A stretch of DNA of 64,000 bases from Pseudovibrio axinellae (lineage in GTDB: Bacteria > Pseudomonadota > Alphaproteobacteria > Rhizobiales > Stappiaceae): assembly GCF_900110875.1 (NCBI RefSeq), contig NZ_FOFM01000002.1:186001-250000 (forward strand), given 5' to 3'. The translations under genes and the position numbers were made by a program. The notes under the pieces were generated by a model. That model did not search any database, was not told the origin of the DNA, and worked only from the letters and a program-made list of their open reading frames with translations. Of this stretch, positions 1,648 through 41,955 are shown piece after piece. Every line of letters starts with the position of its first letter. The first letter of the stretch is position 1.

Positions 1648-3363
1648 TCAGGTGTTCCGCCGAACTTTACCAGAAGCTGTCTTACGCAACATCCAGGTTA
1701 CACTTTGGCTCTCTTTAACAGCAAGCGTGATTACGATTTGCTGTGTCTGCTGATGACCGAAGACATCAGAAAGGTAAATCGATTCTTCGACCGAGAACGC
1801 AAGTCCTTCAGCCGTAAATTCCCACGCCTCGCCATCAGCGCATTGCAAAACAGCAGCATCGCCCATCGGCAACATCGAGCATGTTACACGTGGGTGGAGG
1901 TGGAAACGGACCGTAACCTTCTCCTCCTGCTCTTTATCCTCATTAGGCTTAAACCGATCAATACCATCAAGCACCGTACCATCACGCGAGAGGGTTAGAT
2001 CACGTTCATGTACAATGCCGTAGCGTTCAACATAACCATCGTGGCTAGCGATAACCCGATCGGACAGCTCAGTATCCTGGCGCTCAGCCGTCACATTTTT
2101 GGGACCAGACAGAACTGGATTTCCTAGCACATTTTCAAAACGTGAGGACGTCAAGAAGCGACAGGAGGACGTATCTCCAATTCCTGCTGTTGAATGAGCA
2201 GCTGTAGAACGGGCTACGAGCTTCCATGCAACTTGTCCACGAGTGGAAACGCCACAGTTCACGAAGATGCGGTTGCGTTTGGAAGAAAACTCAAAAGAAA
2301 GGCACCCGGCATGCGTGGTGTTGGAAAAGCGCGTAGGAGGTGGAGTACCCACATCCATCACAACCAGACTATCGCCGCCAATAAGACGCTGATAGCCGGA
2401 GTGAGGTGCGCTCACAGGCGGCGTGCCACGAGCATCATCATAGGCCAGGATCGTTGCAACCACATCGCCCGGTGTTGATGCCATGCCATTAAAGTGCACA
2501 AAGGAGCCATCGCCATGCCGGAAGAAGCGGATCATAGGCATCATCCGGTCAATGGACTCCATCATAACAGGCGACACTGTTTGTCCCTGCATAATGAGCG
2601 CTTGCCGGATCGGTAGCAGGTCAACCAGAATTTCGATGATAGCACCCGGATGTCGGGAAATATGCCCACCATCAGGAAGGATCTGGCGTTTAAGCTCGTA
2701 ATCGAGCTTTTTCAACGCTTGCTTGATATGCCGCCCCTGCCCGTCCATCGACACCGTCGCACAAGCATTTGCCATAGCAACAATCAAACGCGGCAACCCA
2801 TCCGGAGCTCTATTCATAGTGCGACGTAAAAACCGCACTTGCTTATAAAGCGACCGCATGAACGCTCGATAAAACTCCGCCTCACACCCAGTAAGCAACA
2901 AGGGAGACTGAGCCATCCAACTCAAGACACGTCGAGCAACGACTTCCTGATTCCAACCGATACTGTGCCAACGACCGCAGGTTTTAATCCAGTCTTCGAC
3001 AAGAGCGCGTGCATTCTGCTGCGCCATGTTGGTTTCGGCTGCACGCAGATGGCGGAGCCAAGAAAACCCATGCAGCGCCCTCGCCCACTCTAGGTTTGGC
3101 GGCTCGATATCAAAGGGGGACTGTCCACCGACCTCAACCAAATGCCCAGCAAAAAGGAATCGGCCAGCATAAATATCAGCTGCGTTCGTGGCGTCTGCAG
3201 TACGCAGGTCCTGGGGAGCAATAAGCAGACGTGACGGAGCGCTCCCAAACGAGACCAGGCGGAAAAATGATCCACCACGTGCCCAGTTCAAGCCGTTTTC
3301 AGCCGTATTTTGTGTCAAAAGGCTAAGGATTCTAAGCCTTTCGGACACCGTTGCGCCCGTCAT
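1648..3363 (-). CDS. Heparinase II/III family protein
   Basis: A 571-residue protein of the heparinase II/III-like polysaccharide-lyase fold. An alpha-helical N-terminal half (WARALHGFSWLRHL, WHSIGWNQEVVARRVLSWM) precedes a beta-sheet C-terminal half that contains HSTAGIGDTSSCRF and ERYGIVHERDLTLSRDG. The substrate cannot be read from the sequence; in Hyphomicrobiales this gene commonly sits between purH and rsmB, as here, and its role is not well established. I see no clear signal peptide. The start MTGATVSERLRIL has AGAGG almost touching the ATG and GGAG further upstream, so the exact start is uncertain by some residues. The gene probably shares a transcript with rsmB, 115 bp upstream. Confidence 0.88.
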   Translation of the reverse strand: MTGATVSERLRILSLLTQNTAENGLNWARGGSFFRLVSFGSAPSRLLIAPQDLRTADATNAADIYAGRFLFAGHLVEVGGQSPFDIEPPNLEWARALHGFSWLRHLRAAETNMAQQNARALVEDWIKTCGRWHSIGWNQEVVARRVLSWMAQSPLLLTGCEAEFYRAFMRSLYKQVRFLRRTMNRAPDGLPRLIVAMANACATVSMDGQGRHIKQALKKLDYELKRQILPDGGHISRHPGAIIEILVDLLPIRQALIMQGQTVSPVMMESIDRMMPMIRFFRHGDGSFVHFNGMASTPGDVVATILAYDDARGTPPVSAPHSGYQRLIGGDSLVVMDVGTPPPTRFSNTTHAGCLSFEFSSKRNRIFVNCGVSTRGQVAWKLVARSTAAHSTAGIGDTSSCRFLTSSRFENVLGNPVLSGPKNVTAERQDTELSDRVIASHDGYVERYGIVHERDLTLSRDGTVLDGIDRFKPNEDKEQEEKVTVRFHLHPRVTCSMLPMGDAAVLQCADGEAWEFTAEGLAFSVEESIYLSDVFGHQQTQQIVITLAVKESQSVTWMLRKTASGKVRRNT

Positions 3364-18020: not shown

Positions 18021-18425
18021 CTACTCGTCCTCTGGTTTGATATATGAAAAAATCCCCGTGCGCAGATCGTTATGAGCATGATCTCTCTCTACAGAGTCGG
18101 CAGCCAGAAGGTGGACGTAAGCCTCGTGTGACGACTTGATCACAGGCATTGGGTTCTTCTCATTCGGCATACCCATATACCCGAGCCAAATCACGGCTTC
18201 ACTCTTCCCATCCTTAATCAGAACCAGATTTTCTGCATAGTCAGCCGTCTCCTCCGGAGAAATCCGGGTGAAGAGATACCTGTGCCCGGATGTACCAGAC
18301 CAGTACTTGAACTGACTACCAGACCCTAGCTCTTCTGACACGCGCGCGGACGTGCCACCTGGCAAGTGATCATCAAACAACGAGTACTGCAACGCACTCT
18401 CCTGTTCTCTCCTGCTACTTCCCAT
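18021..18425 (-). CDS. Unknown 134-aa protein under a LexA-type box, with a clamp-binding-like motif
   Basis: I do not recognise this protein. It is soluble, with no signal peptide or membrane segment. Residues 13-17 read QYSLF, followed by DD, which fits the QL(S/D)LF-type pentapeptide by which many proteins bind the DNA polymerase sliding clamp (DnaN). A central segment (about 38-85) with FKYWSGTSGHRYLF, LVLIKDG and AVIWLGYMG looks like a small beta-rich domain, followed by a helical end. The promoter carries GTTC-N7-GTTC, the alphaproteobacterial LexA site, between TTGTAA and TATAAA elements. The TATAAA is only 5 nt from the ATG and there is no ribosome-binding site, so the mRNA may be leaderless. 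SOS induction and clamp binding are inferences. Confidence 0.75.
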   Translation of the reverse strand: MGSSRREQESALQYSLFDDHLPGGTSARVSEELGSGSQFKYWSGTSGHRYLFTRISPEETADYAENLVLIKDGKSEAVIWLGYMGMPNEKNPMPVIKSSHEAYVHLLAADSVERDHAHNDLRTGIFSYIKPEDE

Positions 18426-18430
18426 AGTAC

Positions 18431-18460
18431 TTTATAGAACAAACTGTGAACATATTACAA
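18431..18460 (-). promoter_or_regulatory. LexA-regulated promoter (SOS box GTTC-N7-GTTC)
   Basis: On the minus strand, TTGTAA (18460-18455), an 18-nt spacer, TATAAA (18436-18431). The spacer contains GTTCACAGTTTGTTC (18451-18437), an exact match to the GTTC-N7-GTTC LexA consensus of Alphaproteobacteria. A repressor bound here would cover both promoter elements. The match is direct; LexA binding is inferred. Confidence 0.75.
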
Positions 18461-18480
18461 GTTGACCCAGAGCATTGTCA

Positions 18481-18514
18481 AAAAAGAAGCCTCCTTTAAG
18501 GCAAAGGCGGCTTT
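18481..18514 (-). terminator. Intrinsic terminator after plsC
   Basis: Read on the minus strand: AAGCC-G-CCTTT, loop GCCTT, AAAGG-A-GGCTT, then CTTTTTTG. A 10-bp stem with one internal G-A mismatch and a six-T run, 36 nt beyond the plsC stop. It insulates plsC from the LexA-box gene. Confidence 0.8.
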
Positions 18515-20203: not shown

Positions 20204-21271
20204 TTAATCCATATTTCCCAAATGTCTGTGGACAGCCAGACGAGATGTGAGTGCAGTCAACACGGCGACCAGCACCACAACAGCAACAATACCAAGATAC
20301 CCGATTGCACTCACCTGCGCGGAGCCAAACAGCGCCTGCACCTGATTACCACTGACTGAGCTAATATCGCCGCCCCCAAAAAAGCCGATGATCAGAAAGC
20401 TGAGTGCAGCCATCATTCCACCAAAGATACCACCTTTTAGGCCCAGCCACAAAAAGTGTCGCTGAAACTCAGAAGCAATAAAACCAATCTCCGCGCCAAC
20501 GAAATGCAACACCTCAACAACATCCTTGTTGCCGGACATAGCAGCTTGCGTTGCGAAAATAACTGAGAGCACCATAGAAAACAGAACAAGCACCAATATA
20601 CCGAAACCAGCCAGCACGGCCGTATTTGCCATTGCTGAAAGCTGGCGGTTCCAAACCCGGTGGTCATCAACCGATGCCGCGCGAATATCCTGCTCAATCT
20701 GGTTTTTCATTGCCGGTAGATCCAGCAATTCAGGGTCACTGATCTCCACCAGCACCAAACGCGGAATCGGAAGCTCTTCCAGCTCCAACCCCTCACCCAG
20801 CCAGGGCTGAAGCAGGCCTTTGGTTTCCTCATCAGAAAGCGCACGCGCATCCCCAACTCCAGGGAACTCGCGCACCAACGCAAGAGTACGGTCAATCTCA
20901 AGCAGCATATTGACGCCATCTGCTGGTCGGATCTGCACCGTCACCTCACGTACAAGATCGTTGGTCCAGTCATTGGCTGCGTCATTGACAATTGCAACGA
21001 AACCCACGGTCAGGCAGGCAAGGAAGCTCATGATCGCCACAACAAGCATCAAAGCTTGTCCCGAAATAGCTTGAGGTGGAACAATTGGAGCTGTTTTTTC
21101 TCTAAGGCTAAATCTCAGATTAGAAGATTTCGGGCGCGTAGCTTTTTTGACCGGGCGCTTTGCCTTCTTCTTAGGCGTCGCCGCTCTGGCCCCATCCGGC
21201 CTTCTCGCCTTAACTGTCGCACGCTTTGCGCCGGTCATGGGCGGATCTCTTCTTTGCTGAGTATCAGACAT
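20204..21271 (-). CDS. ftsX: Cell-division ABC transporter permease FtsX
   Basis: FtsX is the membrane partner of FtsE; the pair activates septal peptidoglycan hydrolases. The 355-residue protein has a very basic N-terminal tail (about 15-60, rich in Lys/Arg/Ala), a first membrane segment (about 75-98), an extracytoplasmic domain, and three C-terminal segments with the FtsX permease fold (TAVLAGFGILVLVLFSMV, VEVLHFVGAEIGFIASEFQ, LKGGIFGGMM). I start at ATG 21271, which overlaps the end of ftsE by 8 nt, a usual coupling; a longer frame would run deep into ftsE. Confidence 0.93.
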   Translation of the reverse strand: MSDTQQRRDPPMTGAKRATVKARRPDGARAATPKKKAKRPVKKATRPKSSNLRFSLREKTAPIVPPQAISGQALMLVVAIMSFLACLTVGFVAIVNDAANDWTNDLVREVTVQIRPADGVNMLLEIDRTLALVREFPGVGDARALSDEETKGLLQPWLGEGLELEELPIPRLVLVEISDPELLDLPAMKNQIEQDIRAASVDDHRVWNRQLSAMANTAVLAGFGILVLVLFSMVLSVIFATQAAMSGNKDVVEVLHFVGAEIGFIASEFQRHFLWLGLKGGIFGGMMAALSFLIIGFFGGGDISSVSGNQVQALFGSAQVSAIGYLGIVAVVVLVAVLTALTSRLAVHRHLGNMD

Positions 21272-21923
21272 GAACAGCCAGCCGCCCGTCGTTGAGAATA
21301 AGATGTCGAGCTTCAATCTGCTCTAGCAAATGAAAATCGTGCGTTGCGATGACCACGGAAGTTCCAAGCCTGTTCAACTCAATAAAGAGTCGTAACAGCC
21401 GGCGTGCAAGAGGAGGGTCAACGTTACCCGTTGGCTCATCTGCCAACAGCACCTCAGGCCGCGTAATCAAAGCGCGCGCGATGGCTGCGCGCTGCTTTTC
21501 GCCCCCTGATAGAACCGGCGGCAACACATGCATGCGGTCGCCAAGCCCGACCCACTTCAACAAATCGATTACATCTGGACGATATTCGGATTCAGATTTC
21601 CCTGCGACACGGTGCGGTAAGGCAACGTTTTCGTAAGTCGTTAAATGGTCCAGCAAACGAAAATCTTGAAAAACAACGCCAATTCGGCGGCGCATAGAAG
21701 GCAACTCTGCCTTCGCTAACTTGGTGGTATCTTTACCAAAAACTGAGATCAGTCCACGTGTGGGGCGCATAGAGAGAAACAACAAACGCAAAAGACTCGT
21801 TTTCCCCGCGCCCGAAGGGCCAGTGAGAAACTGAAAAGACTGCGGCTCAATGGAAAAGGTCAAATCCCGAAGGACTTCAGGGCCCATTCCATACCGAAGC
21901 CCCACATTCTCAAAGCGTATCAC
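21264..21923 (-). CDS. ftsE: Cell-division ATP-binding protein FtsE
   Basis: A 219-residue ABC ATPase. Walker A is GPSGAGKTS (about 36-44), the Q-loop is VFQDFRLLDHLTTYENVALP, the signature is LSGGEKQRAAIARAL and Walker B is VLLADEPTGNVDP with the H-loop IATHDFHLLE. The residues after the Q-loop, FRLLDHLT, are characteristic of FtsE. It is the first gene of the ftsEX pair and is divergent from the zinc-ribbon gene across a 424-bp region that contains a CtrA-type box. Confidence 0.95.
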   Translation of the reverse strand: MIRFENVGLRYGMGPEVLRDLTFSIEPQSFQFLTGPSGAGKTSLLRLLFLSMRPTRGLISVFGKDTTKLAKAELPSMRRRIGVVFQDFRLLDHLTTYENVALPHRVAGKSESEYRPDVIDLLKWVGLGDRMHVLPPVLSGGEKQRAAIARALITRPEVLLADEPTGNVDPPLARRLLRLFIELNRLGTSVVIATHDFHLLEQIEARHLILNDGRLAVHV

Positions 21924-41379: not shown

Positions 41380-41955
41380 ATGGTCACTCTCAATAAGATT
41401 TATACAAAAACCGGCGATGACGGCACCACCGCTCTGGGCAGCGGCGAACGCAGGCAGAAGCACGACCTGCGCATCGATGCCTATGGAACGGTCGATGAAA
41501 CTAACTCAGTAGTAGGCCTCGCCCGCCTGCACGCAGCCAAAGAGTTTCCAAACCTGGATGAACTCTTAGGACAAATTCAAAACGACCTTTTCGATGTCGG
41601 CGCAGACCTTGCAACACCAGAGACCGATGAAGATCTCGGCTACGAACCATTGCGCGCCACAGCCAATCAAGTCACCTCATTGGAAGTCGCTATCGACCAG
41701 ATGAACGTTGAACTTACACCGTTGAAATCATTCGTATTACCTGGTGGAACGCCACTGGCAAGCTACCTGCACCAGGCCAGAACAGTAGCCCGCCGCGCAG
41801 AACGTCTGGTCGCCGCACTTGCAGAAAAAGAGCAAGTGAACAAACACGCGCTCCAATATCTCAATCGCCTGTCCGACCTCTTTTTCGTCGCCTCTCGCTA
41901 CGCAAACCTAAAAGGTGAAGGCGATATTTTATGGGTCGCAGGCAAATATCGTTAG
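41380..41955 (+). CDS. PduO-type cob(I)alamin adenosyltransferase
   Basis: A 191-residue ATP:cob(I)alamin adenosyltransferase (MMAB/PduO type) making adenosylcobalamin. IYTKTGDDGTTALGSGERRQKHDLRIDAYGTVDETNS contains the ATP-binding N-terminal segment, and FFVASRYANL the C-terminal Arg/Asn pair that closes the site. Length fits the family. It does not resemble the CobA type. AdoCbl serves methylmalonyl-CoA mutase; neighbouring ETF and CoA-enzymes are consistent with acyl-CoA metabolism. Confidence 0.92.
   Translation: MVTLNKIYTKTGDDGTTALGSGERRQKHDLRIDAYGTVDETNSVVGLARLHAAKEFPNLDELLGQIQNDLFDVGADLATPETDEDLGYEPLRATANQVTSLEVAIDQMNVELTPLKSFVLPGGTPLASYLHQARTVARRAERLVAALAEKEQVNKHALQYLNRLSDLFFVASRYANLKGEGDILWVAGKYR

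Follow-up and report, generated by a model that had tools for sequence, protein, structure and literature searches.

A gene encoding 134 residues in the 64-kb stretch of Pseudovibrio DNA analyzed here (hereafter the window) is best read as a LexA-repressed SOS gene whose product would be a non-catalytic, GIY-YIG-derived adapter that docks on the sliding clamp. We give this reading a rough probability of 0.48. Within it we infer LexA repression, the fold itself, clamp binding and the adapter role. LexA would repress the gene, and the protein would be made once DNA damage leads to LexA cleavage. The protein would descend from a small alphaproteobacterial family of GIY-YIG nucleases, with the framework of the fold partly kept and the DNA-cutting residues lost. 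In Pseudovibrio, a disordered N-terminal tail would carry a beta-clamp docking peptide (QYSLF, then DD), through which the protein would attach to the sliding clamp at stalled replication forks and recruit, or compete with, other clamp clients. It would most likely serve the DNA-damage response as an adapter or partner without catalytic activity.

The gene, its promoter and its LexA-type box

The coding sequence of this SOS-box family protein starts with ATG and occupies 18021..18425 on the minus strand, as do all features of the gene, its promoter and its protein described below. It was delimited by reading of the open reading frame and by its homologs, and 26 of the 41 genomes searched with the single window protein contain homologs without inner stops. 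The gene converges with a chaC-like gene, and a terminator-like hairpin (18489..18508, by sequence reading) separates it from an upstream plsC-like gene (both gene names are from sequence reading). The closest copies are in genomes classed in the same genus, and the closest named homologs are from P. denitrificans, P. ascidiaceicola and P. japonicus. Based on profile searches, the gene is present in at least 38 of 87 genomes at the family level, in at least 147 of 249 genomes of an order-level sample and, the source genome counted, in at least 8 of 385 genomes at the class level; the three tallies are lower bounds, with at most 45, 15 and 10 candidates, respectively, scored per genome. One large sister genus of the same family (g2) has the gene in only a few genomes (at least 4 of 45), a pattern that looks like lineage-wide loss.

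The neighborhood of the gene was counted in 19 of the 25 named loci. The chaC-like gene adjoins the family gene in 12 of these, and ftsX-like and ydcF-like genes lie upstream in 15 (names by reading); in three Stappia loci the family gene has different neighbors. In most lineages it looks like a resident chromosomal gene. There were zero matches in a plasmid search with the window protein, in phage searches with a distant homolog and with a GIY-YIG relative, and in viral contigs searched with profile A2. Profile A3 matches four viral contigs, all with another subfamily. The IMG/VR contigs L248-L251, classed as viral, carry relatives of the 'SAWRGRSGRRYVVGVH' subfamily, and on L249 an ORF at 2343-3335, by reading similar to S24-type phage repressors, lies close to the gene of this subfamily. 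In a literature search, mostly of papers outside subscription, no title or shown abstract described the family, and an earlier regulon list may name the gene as a hypothetical protein.

Upstream of the gene is the LexA-type box GTTCACAGTTTGTTC, an exact GTTC-N7-GTTC (18437..18451; read from the sequence and conserved upstream of homologs), which lies between TTGTAA and TATAAA exactly where the initial annotation had placed it. GTTC-N7-GTTC is described as the alphaproteobacterial LexA site in PMC8565304, PMC7987155 and PMC3323433. By itself the box proves nothing, because about two are expected per window by chance (two seen, 2.0 expected from dinucleotide shuffles of the 64 kb). The second occurrence (21361-21375) is inside an ORF (21264-21923) that is ftsE-like by reading, and it is probably due to chance.

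The homologs decide the matter. Of 176 distinct family proteins, 116 are preceded by the exact box on the strand of the gene and 60 are not; the expectation for a stretch of the same length is 0.011. Each search covered the interval from 450 nt upstream to 30 nt downstream of the point where the profile match starts, and the background was taken from elsewhere in the same loci (8 per 344,546 positions). The 176 proteins, drawn from loci L001-L203, are unequally related; clustering at 50% identity yields 51 clusters, 36 of them with the box. Matched genomes outside the 176 are G480, G443, G477, G483, G482, G435, G473 and G481 at the family level and G579 and G040 at the order level. Because the box is conserved order-wide, SOS control, which the initial annotation had proposed from the arrangement of the window promoter, is strongly supported. 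We consider it very probable that the window gene is under SOS control, with LexA as its presumed repressor.

The source genome encodes LexA (TIGR00498, 176 bits, above the cut-off), and GAACACAATGAGAAC is found upstream of its LexA gene. Other boxes in this genome lie between ssb-like and uvrA-like genes, beside a recA-like gene and beside parE-like, parC-like and mmcB-like genes (all names read from sequence). In the last three cases (L237, L243 and L246) the boxes are 86 nt and 14 nt before ParE- and ParC-reading ORFs and 6 nt before an MmcB-like ORF, each in the orientation opposite to the gene. The parE gene of Sinorhizobium meliloti is named as SOS-regulated in PMC3323433. A scan of the source genome with GTTCN5TTGTTC retrieved 19 sites, and 19 were retrieved with the reversed control pattern; thus, the number of boxes is uninformative and only their places count. 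Several of the 19 sites are away from promoters. One is directly before imuB, and imuB was left out as support because this box falls within the imuA-like coding sequence, at its 3' end. Elsewhere in the source genome, GTTCTTATTTTGTTC (L244, G000:C86:140369-140383) is found 4 nt ahead of the start codon (ATG) of a gene for a predicted membrane protein of 181 aa; this may be another leaderless SOS gene or a chance occurrence.

In the window promoter, the candidate -35 element is TTGTAA (18455..18460, by sequence reading), and the 18-nt spacer that follows it contains the box. When the ten closest promoters are compared, eight have TTGTAA at this site; the other two have TTGCAA or TTATAA. The candidate -10 element, TATAAA (18431..18436; sequence reading and the closest promoters), is 5 nt (GTACT) from the ATG. 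By reading, there is no Shine-Dalgarno-like purine run, which confirms the earlier description of a start lacking a ribosome-binding site. An alternative promoter, TTGACA-N18-TAATAT (18452..18481, by sequence reading; consensus-like at 10 of 12 positions), overlaps the site, and three of the ten closest promoters have lost its TTGACA. The leaderless mRNA suggested for the window gene is uncertain, because this second candidate promoter would start the mRNA inside the box.

The suggestion of a leaderless message fares better in the relatives. In 48 of the 115 relatives that have both an exact box and a usable start, the box stops 1-2 nt ahead of the start codon (ATG or GTG). Shine-Dalgarno-like runs are absent from all 48. 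A TTGA or TTGC lies in the 30 nt upstream in 46 of the 48; of these matches, which number 50, 46 begin 18-20 nt ahead of the box. The N7 spacer is commonly T-A-n-n-T-T. Read in this way, the geometry of the 48 relatives places the predicted -10 element inside the N7 spacer and the predicted transcription start at the ATG. In a stricter count, a -35 element matching at least 4/6 at 17-20 nt was found in 60 of 116 cases, including 43 of the 48, and the -10 element also matched at least 4/6 in only 28 of those 60. A leaderless SOS message in which operator and core promoter are merged is likely for this large branch. The Pseudovibrio layout is different: TTGTAA and TATAAA flank the box, and there is an overlapping second promoter close to consensus.

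The clamp-binding-like peptide

The window protein carries QYSLF at residues 13-17, followed by DD (18375..18389), as had been noted from the sequence; the assignment as a clamp-binding-like motif is based on the sequence and on conservation in the same genus. The clamp consensus is given as QL[S/D]LF or QxxLF, with positions 1, 4 and 5 the most important (PMC12309361), and Asp residues are described after the clamp motif in UmuC and Pol III (PMC3716654). QYSLF fits QxxLF and has Tyr at position 2, compared with Leu in the consensus. Among 56 selected ORFs of the window, Q[LYFMI][SD]LF was seen once against 0.08 expected, the looser Q.[SD]LF twice against 0.34 expected, and Q..LF three times against 2.45 expected. 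The second Q.[SD]LF is QNDLF at residue 67 of an unrelated ORF (41380-41955) that reads as a cobalamin adenosyltransferase, so this pattern also arises by chance. The DnaE of the source genome has QNDFF, which resembles a clamp motif and lies in what we take to be the region expected to hold one. DnaE2 has QCQLF, far from the expected place, and no clamp motif was found in DinB and ImuB of the source genome with the pattern used.

Conservation of the peptide is restricted to the genus. Of the 15 same-genus homologs, 13 carry QY[SA]LF and two lack it. The 13 comprise ten close homologs, two with 41% identity and one with 30%, which has QYALF. The codons of the motif vary synonymously and the flanking residues are replaced, which argues for purifying selection on the peptide within the genus. 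Outside the genus, among the 159 of 176 proteins with tails examined, clamp motifs were found in no N-terminal tail and in one C-terminal tail; the tail-motif rule missed L007, which has QYSLF, and the count of 13 was read from the sequences themselves. L153 has QLELL near its C-terminus and L162 a similar QLDLL, possibly a second, independent clamp-like motif in one lineage. The initial annotation had asked whether homologs keep both the box and QxSLF: the box is kept across the order, and QxSLF within the genus and not outside it. As QYSLF is absent outside the genus and from two homologs within it, the basic job of the family cannot depend on this peptide.

In the AlphaFold2 model, QYSLF lies within an N-terminal tail (residues 1-36, 18318..18425) that is predicted to be disordered (pLDDT <50), and it is not buried, a point on which the initial annotation had made the motif depend. 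The window protein is acidic (pI 5.2, net charge -8, core -3), a charge more in keeping with a protein ligand than with DNA. The pI is 7.9 and 8.8 in two QYSLF homologs, though, and its median is 6.6 in the 116 box-bearing proteins. We judge the prospects of clamp docking through QYSLF in Pseudovibrio to be evenly balanced: the match to QxxLF, the disordered tail and the purifying selection in the genus agree with the proposed clamp-binding-like motif, but it is not a trait of the family.

The same distribution favors the strongest alternative, in which the protein is SOS-induced and GIY-YIG-derived and its main role is independent of the clamp. In that case the core would bind a DNA structure or a partner, and QYSLF would be accessory or unrelated. 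The core (YW.G.SG.RYL, G82, VHLLA and DL) is kept order-wide and QYSLF is confined to one genus. Four of five canonical-type relatives have a pI of ~8 to 9.5, as is often the case in DNA-binding proteins (the fifth, L198, is at 6.6). However, an acidic protein such as that of the window is a poor candidate for DNA binding, although the family does not share this acidity, and QYSLF is under purifying selection where it is present. We consider a role independent of the clamp unlikely, and less so than any of the other alternatives to the clamp-docking adapter.

Probable relationship to GIY-YIG nucleases

The initial annotation described a protein of no recognisable family. This is correct for direct searches: the window protein has no match in Pfam, NCBIfam or PADLOC, its only match in PHROGs is phrog_20014 (E 0.26), and five homologs scanned in Pfam gave zero matches. 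It does not hold for profile-profile comparison, which places the protein beside GIY-YIG nuclease-like proteins. A distant homolog matches a Bradyrhizobium barranii plasmid gene annotated as 'GIY-YIG nuclease family protein'. We compared an SOS-type profile (A4), made from the window protein and 22 of the 25 named loci (L210, L211 and L218 left out, some N-termini trimmed), with a set of five relatives (A5) that were chosen by eye for canonical GIY-YIG residues, so that residue counts in A5 are by construction. In hhalign, A4 and A5 match with Prob 96.1 and E 2.8e-9; the alignment spans 96 columns and extends through the last helix. Via an intermediate set (A3), the scores are 98.9 for A4-A3 and 99.7 for A3-A5. 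The control, a neighboring unrelated ChaC-like family, gave Prob 0.2 against A4 and 0.6 against A5. We consider GIY-YIG ancestry of the family likely, with the fold itself a prediction.

At the aligned catalytic positions, Y, Y, R, E and N are replaced in the window protein by V, W, K, H and K, respectively, the aligned R and N columns being uncertain. We rejected an active nuclease on account of these changes, which affect all five positions. Among the 116 box-bearing proteins, a group that includes one canonical-type protein (L198), the GIY Tyr is kept in 18, the Arg in 23 and the Glu in 17, and Trp takes the place of the YIG Tyr in 73. The GIY Tyr is kept in 30 of 56 others without the exact box. 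The YIG Tyr is described as replaceable in R.Hpy188I (PMC2630997), and GIY-YIG families without the Asn are reported in PMC1564403. Based on its sequence, the window protein is probably GIY-YIG-derived and non-catalytic, and not a nuclease. L198, the second relative in genome G587, has GIY-YIG-type Y, F at YIG, R, H, E and N, with an exact GTTC-N7-GTTC 49 nt before its ATG; it is possibly an SOS-controlled active GIY-YIG nuclease.

Other positions of the core are well conserved. The box-bearing proteins keep the W-G-SG-Y segment, the YIG glycine (109/116), the His of VHLLA (112/116), the Asp of DL (114/116), a Tyr (111/116) and an Arg (87/116), the last four corresponding to H105, D120, Y50 and R114 of the window protein. 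Such conservation is strong for a pure scaffold and could signal a different activity rather than none. The fold may have been repurposed as a different enzyme, in which Y50, H105, R114 and D120 would make up a new catalytic site; after damage, it might use nucleotides, RNA or DNA ends as substrates. Yet the His (3/5) and the Asp (4/5) are kept in the canonical-type set too, so they may be structural, and neither fold nor sequence searches gave a significant match to another enzyme. We regard a repurposed enzyme as improbable relative to a non-catalytic adapter.

The core (residues 37-127, 18045..18317) is predicted to be folded, with a pLDDT of ~70-85 in most of it, and to be degenerate GIY-YIG-like based on hhalign. 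Predicted strands are at residues 39-43, 49-55, 67-72, 78-82 and 100-105 and helices at 57-63 and 111-125. The AlphaFold2 model made with A4 has an overall pLDDT of 66, with 80 of 134 residues at 70-90 (medium confidence); a single-sequence model (pLDDT 37.6) was discarded. Foldseek retrieved nothing at E <0.001 from PDB and BFVD. Among the 50 BFVD matches listed, the top one is unnamed (prob 0.95, E 0.048), and an intron-associated endonuclease (prob 0.35) and a GIY-YIG protein (prob 0.20) both rank low. Because Foldseek finds no significant solved structure, the fold assignment is based on sequence profiles and a medium-confidence model.

The link of A5 itself to known GIY-YIG proteins was evaluated in several databases. 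In Pfam, two of the five members have GIY-YIG matches below the cut-off (best E 0.0074) and three have none. The sole NCBIfam matches are Cho, UvrC and a group I intron endonuclease, all below the cut-off. In PDB, UvrC or T4 endonuclease II account for seven of nine matched sequences (E 0.15 to 1, below the cut-off), and the best match, 'Ika8' (E 7e-5, with no stretch passing alone), is not GIY-YIG. One A5 member carries the annotation 'GIY-YIG nuclease family protein'. PDB profile searches with A1 and A3 retrieved only unrelated proteins (E 0.35 or worse). The best candidate for an A5-type paralog in the source genome has an E of 0.049, and none is clear.

The weak GIY-YIG link of A5, the lack of Pfam and NCBIfam matches, PDB sequence matches at chance level only and the negative Foldseek result could all be explained if this were an independent small SOS protein outside the GIY-YIG lineage, its profile match reflecting chance or a convergent W-G-SG-Y likeness. 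Against this stand the hhalign E of 2.8e-9 over 96 columns, the higher-scoring intermediate set and the control Prob of 0.2, and we find an origin outside GIY-YIG very unlikely. Least credible of all is a chance box together with a chance motif before an ordinary housekeeping gene, which the expectation of roughly two boxes per window would allow but which is contradicted by the homologs, where the promoter box is conserved order-wide.

Comparison with known systems and significance

The closest precedent for the working mode of the window protein appears to be ImuB, described as an SOS-controlled polymerase relative without catalytic residues that binds the clamp in Mycobacterium tuberculosis (PMC3901139). 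The two are alike in SOS control, in being relatives of an enzyme without its catalytic residues and in having a clamp-binding motif, which in the window protein is predicted. They differ in that ImuB is a relative of Y-family polymerases, whereas the window protein is a 134-aa GIY-YIG relative encoded outside the imuAB-dnaE2 cluster. The motif itself resembles that given for UmuC of DNA polymerase V, QLNLF, which like QYSLF has Q1, L4 and F5 and then acidic residues (PMC3716654). Unlike that of UmuC, the window motif has Tyr at position 2 and is in the N-terminal tail of a non-polymerase.

Cho and UvrC share the GIY-YIG lineage and are the best NCBIfam matches of single A5 members, below threshold (Cho E 0.02, UvrC E 0.05). 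The window protein is much shorter than both, and all five catalytic residues are missing from its aligned positions. In E. coli, the SOS response induces Cho. WP_231146028.1 of Bradyrhizobium barranii (L203) shares with the window protein the W-G-SG-Y segment, the YIG glycine, the H-x-LA strand and the D-[LI] helix. In contrast to the window protein, it keeps Y, Y, R, E and N and has no exact box upstream. In Caulobacter, two GIY-YIG genes are described in PMC10688885 as being under XRE regulators, apparently outside SOS control.

A broader interpretation, which we offer tentatively, is that the family is an order-wide, unannotated SOS effector in which a GIY-YIG nuclease has turned non-catalytic. 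In one large branch the message would be leaderless, with the operator serving as the -10 element and lying directly against the start codon. In Pseudovibrio the protein would have gained a clamp-docking peptide, making it the nuclease equivalent of ImuB. Alphaproteobacterial SOS regulons still include genes of unknown role. The family gene is small, present order-wide, often at the same chromosomal place and marked by a clear regulatory signature, and is thus amenable to knockout. An operator that doubles as the -10 element of a leaderless gene would, if true, provide very tight and fast control. A dead nuclease relative acting as an adapter in the damage response would, if true, be a parallel to ImuB and add GIY-YIG proteins to the pseudoenzyme theme.
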